Positions 29,897 to 42,683 of a stretch of 64,000 bases of DNA are shown here, in pieces. Every line of letters starts with the position of its first letter. Positions within the stretch are counted from its first letter, which is position 1. The DNA is from Thiorhodovibrio winogradskyi (GTDB taxonomy: Bacteria > Pseudomonadota > Gammaproteobacteria > Chromatiales > Chromatiaceae): NCBI RefSeq assembly GCF_036208045.1, contig NZ_CP121472.1, forward strand, positions 5,157,531 through 5,221,530, in the 5' to 3' direction. The notes under the pieces were generated by a model that did not search any database, was not told where the DNA came from, and was given only the letters and a program-made list of their open reading frames with translations. The translations under genes and the position numbers were made by a program.

Positions 29897-31099
29897 ATGA
29901 ACCCCGCACTCAGCCAACTCAAGCCCTACCCCTTTGAACGCCTCGCCGCCCTCAAGCAGGAGGTGACGCCGCCGGCCGAACTCAAGCCGATCATGCTCTC
30001 CATCGGCGAGCCCAAGCACCCCACGCCGGCCATCATCAGCGATGCGCTTATCACGCATCTGCATCATTTGGCAACCTACCCCAGCACCCGCGGCCTGCCC
30101 GAGCTGCGCGCGGCCATCGCCACCTGGCTGGGTTGGCGCTTTCAGCTTGACCGCGACGGCATCGACCCCGAGACACAAATACTGCCCGTCAGTGGCACCC
30201 GCGAGGCACTGTTCGCGATTGCCCAGGCATTGATCGATCCGGCGGATCGACCGCTGGTGATGATGCCCAATCCTTTTTATCAGATTTACGAAGGCGCCGC
30301 CCTGCTCGCGGGCGCCCAACCCTTCTACCTGCCTTGCACCGCCAGCAAGGGCTTCCTGCCCGATTTCGATCTGATCGACGAGGCGACCTGGCGCCGCTGC
30401 CAGCTTTTGTATTTGTGCTCGCCCGGCAACCCCACCGGCGCGGTCATGGACCAGGCCAGTCTGCAACGCCTGATAGCACTGGCCGAGCAGCACGATTTCA
30501 TCATCGCCGCCGATGAATGCTATTCCGAACTCTACCCGGACGAACAGCGCCCGCCGGTCGGCCTGCTCCAAGCCGCCGCCGCCATGGGTCTGGAGGATTA
30601 TCGTCGTTGCCTGGTCTTCCACAGCCTGTCGAAGCGCTCCAATGCGCCCGGCCTGCGCTCCGGCTTCGTCGCTGGCGACGCGCGGCTGATCGCGAGATTT
30701 TTCGCCTACCGCACCTACCATGGCTGCGCCATGCCGCTGCAGCACCAACACGCTAGCCTGGCCGCCTGGCAGGACGAGAGCCATGTGCGCGAAAACCGCG
30801 CGCGTTATCGCGAGAAATTCAAAGCCGTGCTGGAAATCCTTGATGGCGTGCTCGACTGCCATCAGCCCGAAGGCGGCTTCTACCTCTGGGCGCGCACCCC
30901 GGAAGCGGACGAGACCAGCTTCGTGCGCGAACTCTTCGCCAGGGAGCACCTGACTCTGCTGCCGGGCCGTTTCCTGTCCCGGCCCGCCATCGACGGCCAG
31001 GATCCAGGTCGTGGCTATGTGCGCATCGCCCTGGTGCCGGAACTGGCCGACTGCGTCGAGGCGGCTCTGCGGATCCGTCGCTTCTTCGCCTCTCGATAA
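29897..31099 (+). CDS. dapC: Succinyldiaminopimelate transaminase
   Basis: 400 aa class-I PLP aminotransferase. FHSLSKRSNAPGLRSG carries the PLP lysine (K246), with CSPGNPTGAVM and ADECYSELY before it. The MNPALSQLKPYPFERLAAL start and the dapD and dapE genes downstream fix it as the DapC of the succinylase lysine/diaminopimelate pathway. In related genomes dapC and dapD are close; here about 2 kb of unrelated sequence separates them. Confidence 0.93.
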   Translation: MNPALSQLKPYPFERLAALKQEVTPPAELKPIMLSIGEPKHPTPAIISDALITHLHHLATYPSTRGLPELRAAIATWLGWRFQLDRDGIDPETQILPVSGTREALFAIAQALIDPADRPLVMMPNPFYQIYEGAALLAGAQPFYLPCTASKGFLPDFDLIDEATWRRCQLLYLCSPGNPTGAVMDQASLQRLIALAEQHDFIIAADECYSELYPDEQRPPVGLLQAAAAMGLEDYRRCLVFHSLSKRSNAPGLRSGFVAGDARLIARFFAYRTYHGCAMPLQHQHASLAAWQDESHVRENRARYREKFKAVLEILDGVLDCHQPEGGFYLWARTPEADETSFVRELFAREHLTLLPGRFLSRPAIDGQDPGRGYVRIALVPELADCVEAALRIRRFFASR

Positions 31100-31157: not shown

Positions 31158-32021
31158 ATGACACTCGCTGAGCATCGCGACCGACTCTATGCCTGGCTAC
31201 GCCAATGCCTGATCGGCGAGGGGGAGGCGCTGATCGGGATCAAACCCCTTGATCGTTATCAGACGGGAATTCTCTTCCCCATCCTGCGCGGGGAATTCGG
31301 CATCGATCCGGCGCGGGATGAGAGCGACGCGGGGGATCACATCGACGAGGGAGACGGTGATGCAGGGGAAGCTGCACATCAGGTGCTGGGGATAAGTCCG
31401 CGAAAACAGCGCTTCGTCCCTCCGTCTTCGGTAGGATTTTCTTTTTTCGTCGTTGGCGAGAAGATTCGCTTGCAGCTTGTCCCGCGAGCGAGGCGTTATT
31501 TTCTCACTGGCGCCTCTGACGAGCATGGAATAACCAGGGATCAGCAAGGGCGGTTCGCGAATAACTGGGAAAGCGATGACCTTGGTGGGGACGAATCGGT
31601 TGCCTATGAATTTGTGGCGCCCGATGATCGACGCTTCCTCAGAACCTCCTTCGATGTGTTCAGCGATGGGAACAATGCGCTTGCTGAACTCCTGCTCATC
31701 TGGCGTCCCCTTGCGCGAGGCTGGCTCGTGACTGCATCCTTGAGCAACACTCAGCTGTTAATGCCTAGCAATCAGGGCGAGAAGGAATCCCGCGAACGCA
31801 ACACAATGGCTCTGTTCGATGTTGGCCTTGAGTGCATCATTGATGCAGGAGTTGTCGGCCCCTACCCTGGCGTGTCCTTCGACCAGCTCAGCGACGAAGA
31901 TCAGGAACTGGAACTCAGGTATCGCAACCATCGGGTCTACGCCATCGGTCATGGCGCTGCTGTCGATCGCATTGCATGCTCAAATCGACGACATTGCGCG
32001 TCGAACTGTGGAGCTGACTGA
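31158..32021 (+). pseudogene. N-terminal fragment of a DrmA-like (DISARM) helicase
   Basis: 287 codons from the ATG at 31158. It shows the DrmA N-terminal pattern: LIGEGEALIGIKPLDRYQTG, an acidic low-complexity spacer, RKQRFVPPSSVGFSFFV, and at the end LELRYRNHRVYAIGHGAAVD. In intact DrmA this point is followed by several hundred residues of SF2 helicase; here the frame runs out about 20 residues later in DNA that encodes a different helicase in another frame. The junction is at about 31955-31990. I read it as a decayed defence gene; an active short protein is not excluded. Confidence 0.65.
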
Positions 32022-32976
32022 CGATCAGATGCGCCTTGTTGACGTTATTGAAGTTAACAATAGAGTCATTTGCAAAGGCGGCGCAGGCACCGGCAAGACC
32101 TTTCTTGCGCTCGAGCTGGCTCGGCGTTGGTCCGGCGCTGGGCTCATGGTCTTGGTTGTCTGCCGATCTCCTTGGCTGCGGCATTGGCTCGAAAGCCGCT
32201 TTACAATCCCCAGGGTAGCCGTTGCGCTACCTGAATCCGCCAAGCGCGCGGCACAGCGCTGCAATATTGAACAATTCGATGCCCTGATCGTCGACGAGGG
32301 CCAGGACTTGCTCGACCTGCACGCCATCGGCCAGATGAATGTGATGCTCGCTGGTGGTCTCGGCGCGGGAACCTGGTGTTTTTTTCACGATGTCAACAAT
32401 CAATCCGGCATCTTAAGTCCTGCCGATCCGCATGCCTTGGCACTCTTGCACAGTTTCAACCCGATCTCGGTGCCGCTAAGAACCAATTGCCGCAACACAA
32501 GACAGATACTCAATCAGGTGCAGTCAAGACTCAAGGCCGACATGGGTATCAAAGGGACAGGCAACGGCCCCGACATCCGCATCCGTCAAGCGGAATCTCA
32601 ACAGGGGCTCGCCCAAGCCCTTGCCGAGGAGCTTGACTACTTGGTCGATCAGGGCGGGCTGTATCCGGGCAGCATTAGCATTCTGTCTCCCTTTCCATTC
32701 CCAGACTCAAGGGTCGCGCATCTACCGCGTCGGCTGAGCTCTAGGATTCAGGTGCTTGATGAATACGCGATGCGCACTTTCCCACCGGCACAAATCAGCT
32801 TCGCAACCATCGCTGAATTTAAGGGACTGGAGAATCAAGCCGTGATTCTGGTTGACCTACCCGAGGACATTTCAAGGCCAGAATCCATTGCCGCCAGCTA
32901 CGTCGCCATGAGCAGACCCCGCGCGATCTTAACCCTCATTCAGCGCAAGGCATCCACTCAAGACAGACTCCAATGA
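31951..32976 (+). CDS. Short superfamily-1 (UvrD/NERD-type) helicase core, N-terminus lost
   Basis: 341 aa from the ATG at 31951. CKGGAGTGKTFLALELARRW is Walker A, DALIVDEGQDLLDLH is motif II, FKGLENQAVILVDLP and YVAMSRPRAILTLI resemble motifs V and VI. Relatives normally carry a NERD or similar nuclease domain of about 200 aa before LTDDQ; here only about 15 residues precede it. The gene overlaps the DrmA-like frame by 71 bases. Codon and base use is less GC-rich than the flanking dap genes, as expected for transferred DNA. Function uncertain; probably a defence-island remnant. Confidence 0.6.
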   Translation: MALLSIALHAQIDDIARRTVELTDDQMRLVDVIEVNNRVICKGGAGTGKTFLALELARRWSGAGLMVLVVCRSPWLRHWLESRFTIPRVAVALPESAKRAAQRCNIEQFDALIVDEGQDLLDLHAIGQMNVMLAGGLGAGTWCFFHDVNNQSGILSPADPHALALLHSFNPISVPLRTNCRNTRQILNQVQSRLKADMGIKGTGNGPDIRIRQAESQQGLAQALAEELDYLVDQGGLYPGSISILSPFPFPDSRVAHLPRRLSSRIQVLDEYAMRTFPPAQISFATIAEFKGLENQAVILVDLPEDISRPESIAASYVAMSRPRAILTLIQRKASTQDRLQ

Positions 32977-33048
32977 AGTCTCGCCAGTCCACCAAGCCCC
33001 TAGATTGAACGGCAGGGATCCGGCGCGTCCGACAGTGAGCGCCTCGGG

Positions 33049-33054
33049 TATAAT
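33049..33054 (+). promoter_or_regulatory. Probable -10 box for dapD
   Basis: TATAAT, 39 bases before the dapD start. No clear -35 is seen at the right distance. It would let dapD be expressed despite the insertion that separates it from dapC. Confidence 0.45.
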
Positions 33055-33092
33055 GCGGGCCAATTTCATTACTCACCTTCCGGAGCCCGACC

Positions 33093-33914
33093 TTGAACGA
33101 GCAGCAACAGATTATTGACCAAGCCTTTGAACGCCGTGCCGAGATTACCCCGCGCAATGTGGAAACCCTGGTGCGTGATGCGGTGCAGGACACCATTGAA
33201 CGACTCGATCGCGGCGAGTTGCGGGTCGCCGAGAAGCGCGACGGCCAGTGGCAGGTGAACGACTGGGTCAAGAAAGCCGTGCTGCTGTCCTTTCGCATCG
33301 AGGACAATGCTTTTATCAAGGGCGGCTTCACCAATTATTACGACAAGGTGCCATCGAAGTATCAGGACAGCAATTCCCGTGAGTTCCGCGTGGGCGGAGT
33401 GCGGGTGGTGCCGCCGGCGACCGCGCGTCGGGGTTCTTACATCGCGCCCAGCTGCGTGCTGATGCCAAGCTATGTGAACATTGGCGCTTATGTGGATTCT
33501 GGCACCATGGTGGACACCTGGGCGACTGTCGGATCCTGCGCTCAAATCGGCAAGAATGTCCATCTCTCTGGCGGTGTCGGCATCGGCGGCGTGCTGGAGC
33601 CGGTGCAGGCGGCGCCGACCATTATCGAGGACAACTGCTTCATTGGCGCGCGCTCGGAGATTGTCGAAGGCGTTATCGTTGGTGAGGGCGCGGTCATCTC
33701 CATGGGCGTTTACATTGGCCAAAGCACCAAGATTTATAACCGCACCACGGGCGAGACCCTGTTCGGTCATGTGCCAGCTGGAGCCGTGGTCGTGCCGGGC
33801 AATCTACCGGCAAAAGACGGCACCCATAGTCTCTACTGCGCGGTCATCATCAAGCAGGTGGACGAGAAAACCCGCGGCAAGGTGGGCATCAACGAACTAC
33901 TGCGCGACATCTGA
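33093..33914 (+). CDS. dapD: Tetrahydrodipicolinate N-succinyltransferase
   Basis: 273 aa, full length. It begins with TTG at 33093 behind a CGGAG site. The N-terminal helical domain is followed by left-handed beta-helix hexapeptide repeats ([39 protein letters not shown]) and the end [20 protein letters not shown]. It succinylates tetrahydrodipicolinate with succinyl-CoA, the step before DapC. dapE follows after 11 bases. Confidence 0.96.
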
Positions 33915-40902: not shown

Positions 40903-41631
40903 CTAACCAACAGGCGCGACACGGGCAGCGCGGGGCATTGAGTTTGCCGTCATGCCCAGATAATCGAAGACACGGCGGACTTTGCGCGCGAGCTTCTCGA
41001 TGGTGGCTGCCACGGAATCCTTGGATTTCGTTTTGATCAGACCGGCGGCAAACCGGCGCAGTCGGGTGATGTTTTCTGGTCCATGGCCGGTGCGGATGGT
41101 GCAGCGATCCTCATCCCAGTTCCAGTCGAGGATCCAGTGATGGGCTTCAATGCCCCAATGCCCACGGTTGAAGGCGAGCAGGCGCTTAGGGCTTGCACTC
41201 TCAGGGGTATGATCCGTGACGCCGAAGACTGTCTCGACGGAGGTCTTGTCGGTTTTTTTCTCAGTGGTGGTGCGCTCAATGGCGAAGACCTGCCCGACAT
41301 GGGGGAAATCGAGATAGTTGTTCAGCGCCGTGGAGGTCCAAATCGCGCGGCTTTCGATACGCCCATGCGCAAGGTCCGATGACTCGCGAAAATCCGGCTC
41401 GCCCCGCGCCTGGAAAAGCAGGCGGATGTCGGCAACCAGCGTGGGCTGATTCTCTTTGGCGATAAAGACGTAATGCGCGCCCCGTTCGATGAGATACTCA
41501 GCGAGCGAGCGCTGGGTGAGCAGGGCGTCGGCGGTGAGGGTCTTGTCAGTGAGGTCGAGGGAGTCGAGCACCGGGATGGCCATCCCGATCTCGTTGGTTT
41601 GCTTCAGTTCATCACTGCCATTGACAGGCAA
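40903..41631 (-). CDS. Transposase part B: ISAs1 catalytic C-terminus (-1 frame)
   Basis: The true reading probably enters from part A at the A-AAA-AAG run, giving ..HTQKKVGALPVNGSDELKQ... It carries the second Asp (LTADALLTQRS) and the Glu (HWGIEAHHWILDWNWDED) of the DDE triad. The C-terminus LGMTANS.. is complete for ISAs1. With part A all three catalytic residues are present, so the element may still be active if frameshifting occurs. Confidence 0.75.
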   Translation of the reverse strand: MPVNGSDELKQTNEIGMAIPVLDSLDLTDKTLTADALLTQRSLAEYLIERGAHYVFIAKENQPTLVADIRLLFQARGEPDFRESSDLAHGRIESRAIWTSTALNNYLDFPHVGQVFAIERTTTEKKTDKTSVETVFGVTDHTPESASPKRLLAFNRGHWGIEAHHWILDWNWDEDRCTIRTGHGPENITRLRRFAAGLIKTKSKDSVAATIEKLARKVRRVFDYLGMTANSMPRAARVAPVG

Positions 41632-42683
41632 AGCACCGACTTTTTTTGGGTGTGACAGACCTTGGAGTCATGTCCAACGACACCGAGGATGTGGGTCTGG
41701 CGTCCCTCGGCGTCGATGGCATTGCACATCGTCTTGCCATCAATGGCCAGGCCCTCGTCCTCGGCGCCCATCTGCGCATTCCAGCCCTGCAGCGCCCCAT
41801 CAAGGGCGTCGGGATCGACCCGGGTGAGGACATCGCGGATGCGCGTGCGGCTGGGCACCTCATAGCGACCGTTGCGATAACGGCAACCAAAGCGCGCCCG
41901 GGCCGCCTGGCTGAGATCCTTCGCCCAAGCGGCGATGGCCTTATAGCCACGCGCCCCGCACAGCACCGCCGCGGCGGAGATCGCAAGAACCACCGGCAAG
42001 GGATGACGCCGGCCTTGGCCGCGACGCGGATCAGGGACATCGACAAAGAACGCAGGAAGCGAACGCATCTGTTGTGCGGAGATCATGAGTTTTGGGGCTC
42101 CATAGCGATACTGGGAATCGAGTCTTGGGTCGGACAAGCGTGCTTGGACCTGCCCGATCAAGGGGCGGACAAACACCCGCTTGGCGCCATCGGGCTGCTG
42201 GCTGTAGCCGGCGCGCGTGCGGCGGTACCCGCGCGTCTGCCCGACCTCCAGCCAGTTGGCCGCGCGATAGCAGGTGCCGGTAAAGCGGCGCGGATCGACG
42301 AAGGTCTCCAGCAACCACAGCGGATAACCGAAGCGGGTCTGCCAATCAGTGCTGACCTGGCGCTCGCACAGCGACAGCACCTTGGAGGCGAGATTGGGCA
42401 CATGCCACTGGGGCAGAATGAGAAAGCGGGCGTTGTTGGCGATCAGATGCAGGCGGTCGAACTGGTAGCGGCGATCCCAGCCGATCCACTGATCGCGCGC
42501 CGCGCACTTCCAGGCCGCGGCGCTCAGCACCAGCAACGCCAACCACTGATCCCGCCAGATGGCGACATACCAGAGGGTGTGACCGATTTTTGCCGCCGCG
42601 CCCAGGTAGTGATACGCCTCGAGCAATGCTTTGAAGCGCGCCTCTTCATCTGGGGCGACCGCACGCAGGGTGATGTCGTGCAA
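41604..42683 (-). CDS. Transposase part A: DUF4338 (DruA-like) domain fused to ISAs1 N-terminus
   Basis: 359 aa, TTG start. Residues about 1-165 are DUF4338: YHYLGAAAKIGHTLWYV, IGWDRRYQFDRLHLIANNARFLI and FVDPRRFTGTCYRAANW. About 195-345 is the ISAs1 part, with VDVPDPRRGQGRRHPLPVVL and the first catalytic Asp in LAIDGKTM. It ends by frameshift shortly after VVGHDSKVCHTQKK. DUF4338 is the domain of DruA, a protein of Druantia anti-phage systems, but it is also widely carried by transposons, as here. Confidence 0.8.
   Translation of the reverse strand: MHDITLRAVAPDEEARFKALLEAYHYLGAAAKIGHTLWYVAIWRDQWLALLVLSAAAWKCAARDQWIGWDRRYQFDRLHLIANNARFLILPQWHVPNLASKVLSLCERQVSTDWQTRFGYPLWLLETFVDPRRFTGTCYRAANWLEVGQTRGYRRTRAGYSQQPDGAKRVFVRPLIGQVQARLSDPRLDSQYRYGAPKLMISAQQMRSLPAFFVDVPDPRRGQGRRHPLPVVLAISAAAVLCGARGYKAIAAWAKDLSQAARARFGCRYRNGRYEVPSRTRIRDVLTRVDPDALDGALQGWNAQMGAEDEGLAIDGKTMCNAIDAEGRQTHILGVVGHDSKVCHTQKKSVLCLSMAVMN

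Follow-up and report, generated by a model that had tools for sequence, protein, structure and literature searches.

We found that two short reading frames lying between dapC and dapD in Thiorhodovibrio winogradskyi are very probably the two ends of a DISARM-related operon of five genes, its first and its last, joined to each other by one internal deletion. The operon would have been acquired horizontally, would have come to sit in the dapC-dapD spacer and would later, apparently recently, have lost its middle and with it its defence function. Defence operons are often gained and broken. The scar is ordinary, yet it is a clean and apparently recent case in which the intact parent operon, the two break points and the empty site are all identifiable. 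The main interest of the remnant, which is most likely dead, is the little-described DISARM-like operon that relatives carry intact. All coordinates are positions in the window, the whole 64,000-nucleotide stretch that was analysed, which lies inside a one-contig genome of 5.48 Mb that is 99.6% complete.

Two gene pieces between dapC and dapD

In the ORF listing, two frames occupy the interval from the stop of dapC (31099) to the start of dapD (33093); the aminotransferase gene on the left is one that we take to be dapC. The first frame runs from an ATG at 31158 to a stop at 32021 (287 codons) and the second from an ATG at 31951 to a stop at 32976 (341 codons), with an overlap of exactly 71 bases in the +1 frame. 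A preliminary description of the sequence had placed both frames and their overlap at these positions, and had taken them for a DrmA fragment and an SF1 helicase core without its NERD domain, meeting straight after the motif YAIGHGAAVD. The ORF listing, the profile searches and the comparison with homologues given below bear out each of these points (Table 1).

Table 1. Features of the dapC-dapD interval, in window coordinates
Feature	Position	Strand	Basis or remark
dapC-like aminotransferase gene, intact left neighbour	29897..31099	+	ORF; 86% identical orthologue in G001
drmA remnant, codons 1-271 of a drmA of ~1,080 codons	31158..31970	+	ends after YAIGHGAAVD
Out-of-frame tail of the drmA frame past the junction, 16 foreign residues then stop	31971..32021	+	ORF
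Helicase remnant, SF1 core of a NERD-helicase from about codon 200 of 528-535	31951..32976	+	without NERD nuclease domain
Probable deletion junction	31964..31975	+	read by eye against homologues, proteins 60-66% identical
Spacer segment with TATAAT (33049-33054), adjoining dapD	33039..33092	+	conserved in G001, G002 and, with one changed base in the hexamer, G006
dapD, intact right neighbour	33093..33914	+	97% identical protein in G001

DrmA was the sole PADLOC match of the drmA piece (E 1.1e-6, residues 20-268 on profile positions 20-244 of 1282). The NCBIfam profile DISARM_DrmAS was matched at E 4.1e-8 (residues 7-278 on 2-280 of 1165), with a score of 31.6 bits that lies below the DrmA equivalog cut-off of 950, and a Pfam search gave no match. 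Among PDB sequences only DrmA 7s9v was found (E 0.016); this weak alignment covers two stretches within residues 227-404 of Serratia DrmA, before the motor. According to passages of PMC9142583, the RecA motor of DrmA in DISARM (Serratia residues 600-1150) is borne by an N-terminal chassis that contacts DrmB. The first motor motif, GGGKT, is at codon 442 in the DrmA of the congener G001; the window piece ends at codon 271 and is without RecA1, RecA2 and the helicase motifs.

The NERD half is absent from the helicase piece: its best PADLOC match, RTasNERD-Hel (E 2e-29), is covered only at profile positions 196-514 of 519. The piece keeps GGAGTGKT, DEGQD, NCRNTR, FKGLE and SRPRA, the Walker A, Walker B and C-terminal motifs of an SF1 helicase. 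Full-length homologues in seven other genomes, 39-60% identical to the drmA piece and 42-66% to the helicase piece, argue that neither is a chance frame.

The intact operon and the probable joining of its ends

We searched 112 genomes (own included) with the two halves. The same five other genomes gave strong matches to each half (G001, G017, G023, G024 and G048), and three further genomes gave weak helicase matches only. When 369 genomes sampled from the whole class (own included, overlapping partly with the first set) were searched, G409 and G115 were added for both halves, and a distant helicase was found in G208. In all seven other genomes the halves lie in full-length genes, of 1,079-1,221 residues for drmA and 528-583 for the helicase; the G409 helicase match includes one TGA, apparently since the match overruns the gene end, and the ORF itself is clean at 528 residues. 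The halves being different genes in all seven, a frameshift in one fused gene was rejected. The operon runs in the order drmA, drmB, an SF1 helicase of ~395 residues, a fourth gene of ~540 residues (gene 4) and the NERD/SF1 helicase. This order was found on one contig in six genomes (G001, G017, G023, G024, G409 and G115), and the operon of G048, which is split across two short contigs, is consistent with it.

A contig scan of named genomes, with at least 134 relatives listed, left 80 loci. Among the matches listed, both drmA and the NERD-helicase were present in 67 of the 80, and the other 13, several of them at contig ends, had no drmA match. The drmA-to-helicase order was seen in 43 of the 67, 41 of them with all five genes, and the other order in 24. 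Only one locus among the matches listed, L150, has less than 3 kb between drmA and the NERD-helicase; there a contig end cuts drmA, and drmB sits between drmA and the helicase.

The DrmA of G001 scores 832.7 bits, below the NCBIfam cut-off of 950, its DrmB passes the DrmB_fam cut-off (338.8 against 240 bits), and its last gene has the NERD domain PF08378 (42.3 bits, cut-off 22.1) plus an SF1 core. In G001 no methyltransferase, DrmC or PLD profile matched any gene of the operon, and no methylase was found among 13 ORFs that flank it at eight intact drmA-first loci; in this order the operon thus seems self-contained. In the 24 loci of the other order among the matches listed (L122-L145, from actinobacteria and others), the NERD-helicase comes first, followed by drmA and drmB; the SF1 gene was matched in 23 of them and gene 4 in none. 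A C-5 DNA methylase gene was found in the fetched flank of both other-order loci tested, L122 and L124, so this branch may be closer to classical DISARM.

Measured on intact operons, the DNA missing from the window amounts to 7,755 (G001), 8,873 (G023), 7,705 (G024) and 7,781 bases (G409). We infer a single deletion event of ~7.8 kb, which would have taken everything from drmA codon 272 through about codon 200 of the NERD-helicase gene; removal of genes 2-4 and of two gene ends would have joined the ends of the operon out of frame. At the junction, GTCGAT agrees with drmA (AVD), and from ATCGCATTGCAT on the sequence agrees with the helicase gene. By eye, the joining point is uncertain by about 4-6 bases, so that any microhomology would be short, a few bases at most. 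The parent junction was reconstructed by comparison with intact operons that share no more than 60-66% protein identity with the window pieces, and the course may alternatively have had two steps, deletion and then trimming.

Maximum-likelihood trees were built from 23 and 22 chosen rows, among them G409. In each of the two, the window copy has G409 as its sister, with support of 100/99; in earlier trees without G409 the window branch had looked isolated. The same sister in both trees argues that both pieces derive from one operon. The genome carries a single copy of each piece. Searched against it, G001 drmA found only the kept piece and four weak helicase matches (E 0.001-0.08). The NERD-helicase of G409 found the window copy (residues 199-526) and one match at E 0.019, with its residues 1-198 unmatched at E 0.1; G409 gene 4 likewise found nothing at E 0.1, which is weak evidence taken alone. 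As these searches with drmA, gene 4 and the NERD-helicase found none of the missing part, its relocation within the genome was rejected. G001 drmB matched only a 117-residue stretch elsewhere, at ~1.64 Mb, and nothing at the window locus. The genome thus has another DISARM-type remnant, a 143-residue frame at L157:7716-8147 (G000:C1, ~1,643,700) that matches DrmB at its C-terminal end alone (PADLOC E 3e-41, 45% to G001); by eye, no further DISARM gene was seen among the ORFs listed around it.

The preliminary description had instead proposed recombination between two helicase genes. Both pieces are indeed helicase genes and are joined to each other, but that two separately acquired genes were recombined is barely credible: both halves share the G409 sister, in which they belong to one operon on one contig, and the joined sites are alike over a few bases at most. 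A deletion within one operon, with drmA first and the NERD-helicase last, takes the place of that proposal. An assembly error would mean that the operon is complete in the strain and that the deletion, or the frame where the two ends meet, is artefactual; in its favour is that there is one assembly alone. Set against the one-contig, 99.6% complete genome, the NERD part and gene 4 unmatched elsewhere in it, and relatives in which no repeat that could collapse is seen by eye at the two ends, we hold such an error to be extremely unlikely.

Age of the probable deletion and the insertion site

The deletion is apparently recent, because neither piece contains a stop codon and conserved columns are kept. 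Of 5,445 possible single-base changes, 167 would create a stop, and the absence of any stop across 1,815 sites caps neutral change after the deletion, by arithmetic, at about 5% per site. Columns conserved in at least 95% of the other rows (51 for the helicase, 41 for drmA) are unaltered in the window at 59 of 59 and 31 of 32 positions, respectively, which would tighten this cap to roughly 2-3% if the pieces evolved without selection. The other rows also keep these columns (0-2 and 0-3 deviations), and selection on the pieces would preserve them too.

The nearest clade was compared over 10 and 9 rows, with L087 outside the set. For the helicase half, 120 columns are the same in all nine other clade rows, and the window departs from them at 8, those rows themselves doing so at 1-6 of 113-118 columns; the corresponding figure for the drmA half is 2 of 63. 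The helicase half has evolved faster than G409 (31-41 against 11-19 unique changes, p 0.0005-0.022, eight outgroups), and the drmA half not clearly so (p 0.049-1, seven outgroups). A common date of decay should speed up both halves alike, and the clear acceleration of the helicase half alone counts against it. We read these results as a recent deletion with at most the start of decay in the helicase half, and with selection on the core as a possibility. Pairwise dN/dS was uninformative, being near saturation (pS 0.52-0.81).

The deletion would have left part of the DrmA chassis without motor, DrmB or NERD nuclease. With the DrmA motor, DrmB and the NERD domain gone, the original defence function is almost certainly lost. 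Translation of the helicase core may continue, and with its SF1 motifs the product could be an ATPase. The two frames might form a working overlapping pair, or the NERD-less core might be an SF1 ATPase that works alone, its translation coupled to that of the drmA frame. The open frames, the intact helicase motifs and the kept conserved columns would suit this, as would a second bare NERD-less core of 311 residues that stands alone in the MAG GSL.Bin27 (L087:9953-10888). Recency alone, however, explains the open frames, and we take the second core, with none of the other four operon genes matched in the ~10 kb on each side, to be a second, independent remnant. No ribosome-binding site is visible before the ATG at 31951, no promoter-like site was predicted upstream of 31158, and the helicase half has changed at the 8 of 120 columns kept by the other clade rows (L087 outside the set). 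The promoter and terminator scan gave one weak promoter-like site inside the helicase piece, with 0.8 expected. The preliminary description had preferred a scar to a functional overlapping pair, and had named conservation of the pair in several species as evidence to the contrary; the same pair occurs in none of the seven other genomes and in none of the 67 loci with both genes (of 80 kept, among the matches listed). We therefore consider a working pair very unlikely, and keep to a broken operon.

The site itself was compared in relatives. Of 55 genomes (own included), 47 gave a match to dapD, and 16 of the relatives were fetched. DapC and DapD are neighbours in 15 of the 16, with 27-312 bases between match ends, against a stop-to-start distance of 1,993 bases in the window; in the remaining one, G006, the contig gave no dapC match. 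The spacers of the congeners G001 and G002 (211 and 312 bases) contain nothing of the operon. With the spacer empty in 15 relatives, the earlier proposal that defence-type DNA was inserted between dapC and dapD stands. Similarity to G001 resumes at 33039, just before the segment CCTCGGGTATAATG, which places the right-hand boundary of the insert at that position or immediately before it. This segment is common to both congeners, and G006 has one change in the hexamer. It is probably the dapD promoter; a consensus promoter scan misses the TATAAT motif. Relatives keep the promoter-like motif next to dapD and the insert lies upstream of it, so dapD need not be disturbed. The insert had been described as lying inside the dap operon, which is right by position, but it lies upstream of the conserved promoter-like motif of dapD. 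In G002 (L056) the dapC-dapD spacer is longer, with a palindrome-like GC-rich stretch, and on that account the spacer seems to tolerate insertions.

G001 has an intact operon of its own elsewhere in its genome, which groups with those of Thiorhodococcus and Halochromatium and not with the window copy, pointing to separate acquisitions. The GC content of the insert is 56.6% against 60.7% for the window, the 22nd lowest of 311 stretches and only mild support for a foreign origin. The longest word shared by the flanks is 7 bases, and no repeat explains the insertion. Gene 4 had no match in 72,556 plasmid records (E 1e-10) or in 50,697 phage records (E 1e-5). Viral contigs gave only four distant helicase relatives (26-38% identity). 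Insertion by an identifiable mobile element was rejected on these grounds: no flank repeat above 7 bases, no gene 4 match in those plasmid and phage records, and only distant helicases in viral contigs.

The flanks were examined in ten ORFs of at least 250 residues between 17.7 and 46.2 kb, a selection of the ORFs there. Nine had no PADLOC match and a dnaX-type protein had two (E 7e-4 and 9e-4). Most of the ten proteins are of housekeeping or transport types and none is convincing as a defence protein, and the term defence island, used in the preliminary description, is not borne out by them; the DruA-domain protein among the neighbours carries a transposase-associated domain. Encoded at 41607-42683 (-), it combines the DruA domain (PF14236, E 4e-29) with a DDE_Tnp_1-associated domain and is a transposase-like protein.

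Gene 4 and kinship with known systems

Gene 4 lies outside the window (L074:7728-9398, in Thiorhodococcus mannitoliphagus; also L071, L073, L086, L167 and others). Among the matches listed, it was matched at 41 of the 80 loci, those with the complete set of genes in drmA-first order. The G001 copy had no PADLOC, Pfam or NCBIfam match and the L074 copy no PHROG match; the best hit of a gene 4 profile against the PDB had an E of 0.12, and a BFVD fold search gave nothing below E 0.001. A structure model built from 36 aligned sequences has a mean pLDDT of 90.1. In this model, residues 26-186 resemble DarT (Foldseek E 3e-4, prob 1.00; Z 11.4, rmsd 3.4, 152 aligned), with D64 and E91 conserved at 80% or more. 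Residues 205-441 resemble ARH3 (Z 14.7, rmsd 3.8, 214 aligned), a score that helical domains can reach without kinship; by Foldseek the ARH match is weak (E at least 0.08, prob at most 0.72), and in this part a single Glu (E359) and not one Asp is conserved at the 80% level. Gene 4 is accordingly best described as a predicted DarT fold followed by a predicted helical domain whose best match is to ARH hydrolases, weakly by Foldseek. It differs from DarT/DarTG and from the ARH hydrolases in having both predicted folds in one chain.

Ofir et al. reportedly described DISARM in 2018 as a system with a drmA/drmB core. The intact relatives resemble it in having DrmA- and DrmB-family proteins encoded by separate neighbouring genes, and in passages of PMC12458937 only DISARM is said to split the helicase and the DUF1998 part consistently into two genes. 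They differ from DISARM in that the G001 operon lacks a methyltransferase (DrmMI/DrmMII) and a DrmC/PLD profile, and in adding an SF1 helicase, gene 4 and the NERD-helicase; the window has fragments only, and the DrmA motor and the DrmB partner are absent at its locus. The last gene of the intact operon shares its NERD plus SF1 core architecture with the NERD-UvrD helicases (PADLOC RTasNERD-Hel, C3a187), whereas the window copy lacks the NERD domain and none of the five G001 genes gave a reverse-transcriptase match. ARMADA, BRIGADE and TALON have a YprA-family helicase core, in TALON with a NERD-type nuclease, but other partner genes (passages of PMC12458937). The five-gene order found here is not described in the abstract, sections 3 and 8 and further passages of that paper, and we found no description of the operon in our searches of the open-licence PMC literature, which covered parts of PMC12458937, PMC9142583, PMC11090510 and PMC10952713.

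The conserved five-gene DrmA-DrmB operon, in which gene 4 has a predicted DarT fold, offers a testable link between DISARM-type helicases and ADP-ribosylation. Tentatively, the scar could be the footprint of a widespread, so far undescribed DISARM-related class, a stand-alone operon with DrmA and DrmB but no methylase or DrmC of its own, a DarT/ARH-like fusion and two SF1 helicases. The weakness of the ARH match and the methylase genes close to loci of the other order count against this reading. In such a class, the fusion of a DarT fold with an ARH-like domain in gene 4 would be a sensor or writer of ADP-ribose marks on DNA, and together with the two SF1 helicases, one with a NERD nuclease, it would supply recognition and cleavage. 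If so, breakage to a bare helicase core, here and at L087, would reflect cost or phage counter-selection. Beside the intact operon of the congener G001, and tail to tail with it, lie genes for an SNF2 helicase (L019:1683-5204, +) that matches PADLOC DpdE at E 3e-194 and for a 542-residue protein without a PADLOC match (L019:58-1683, +).
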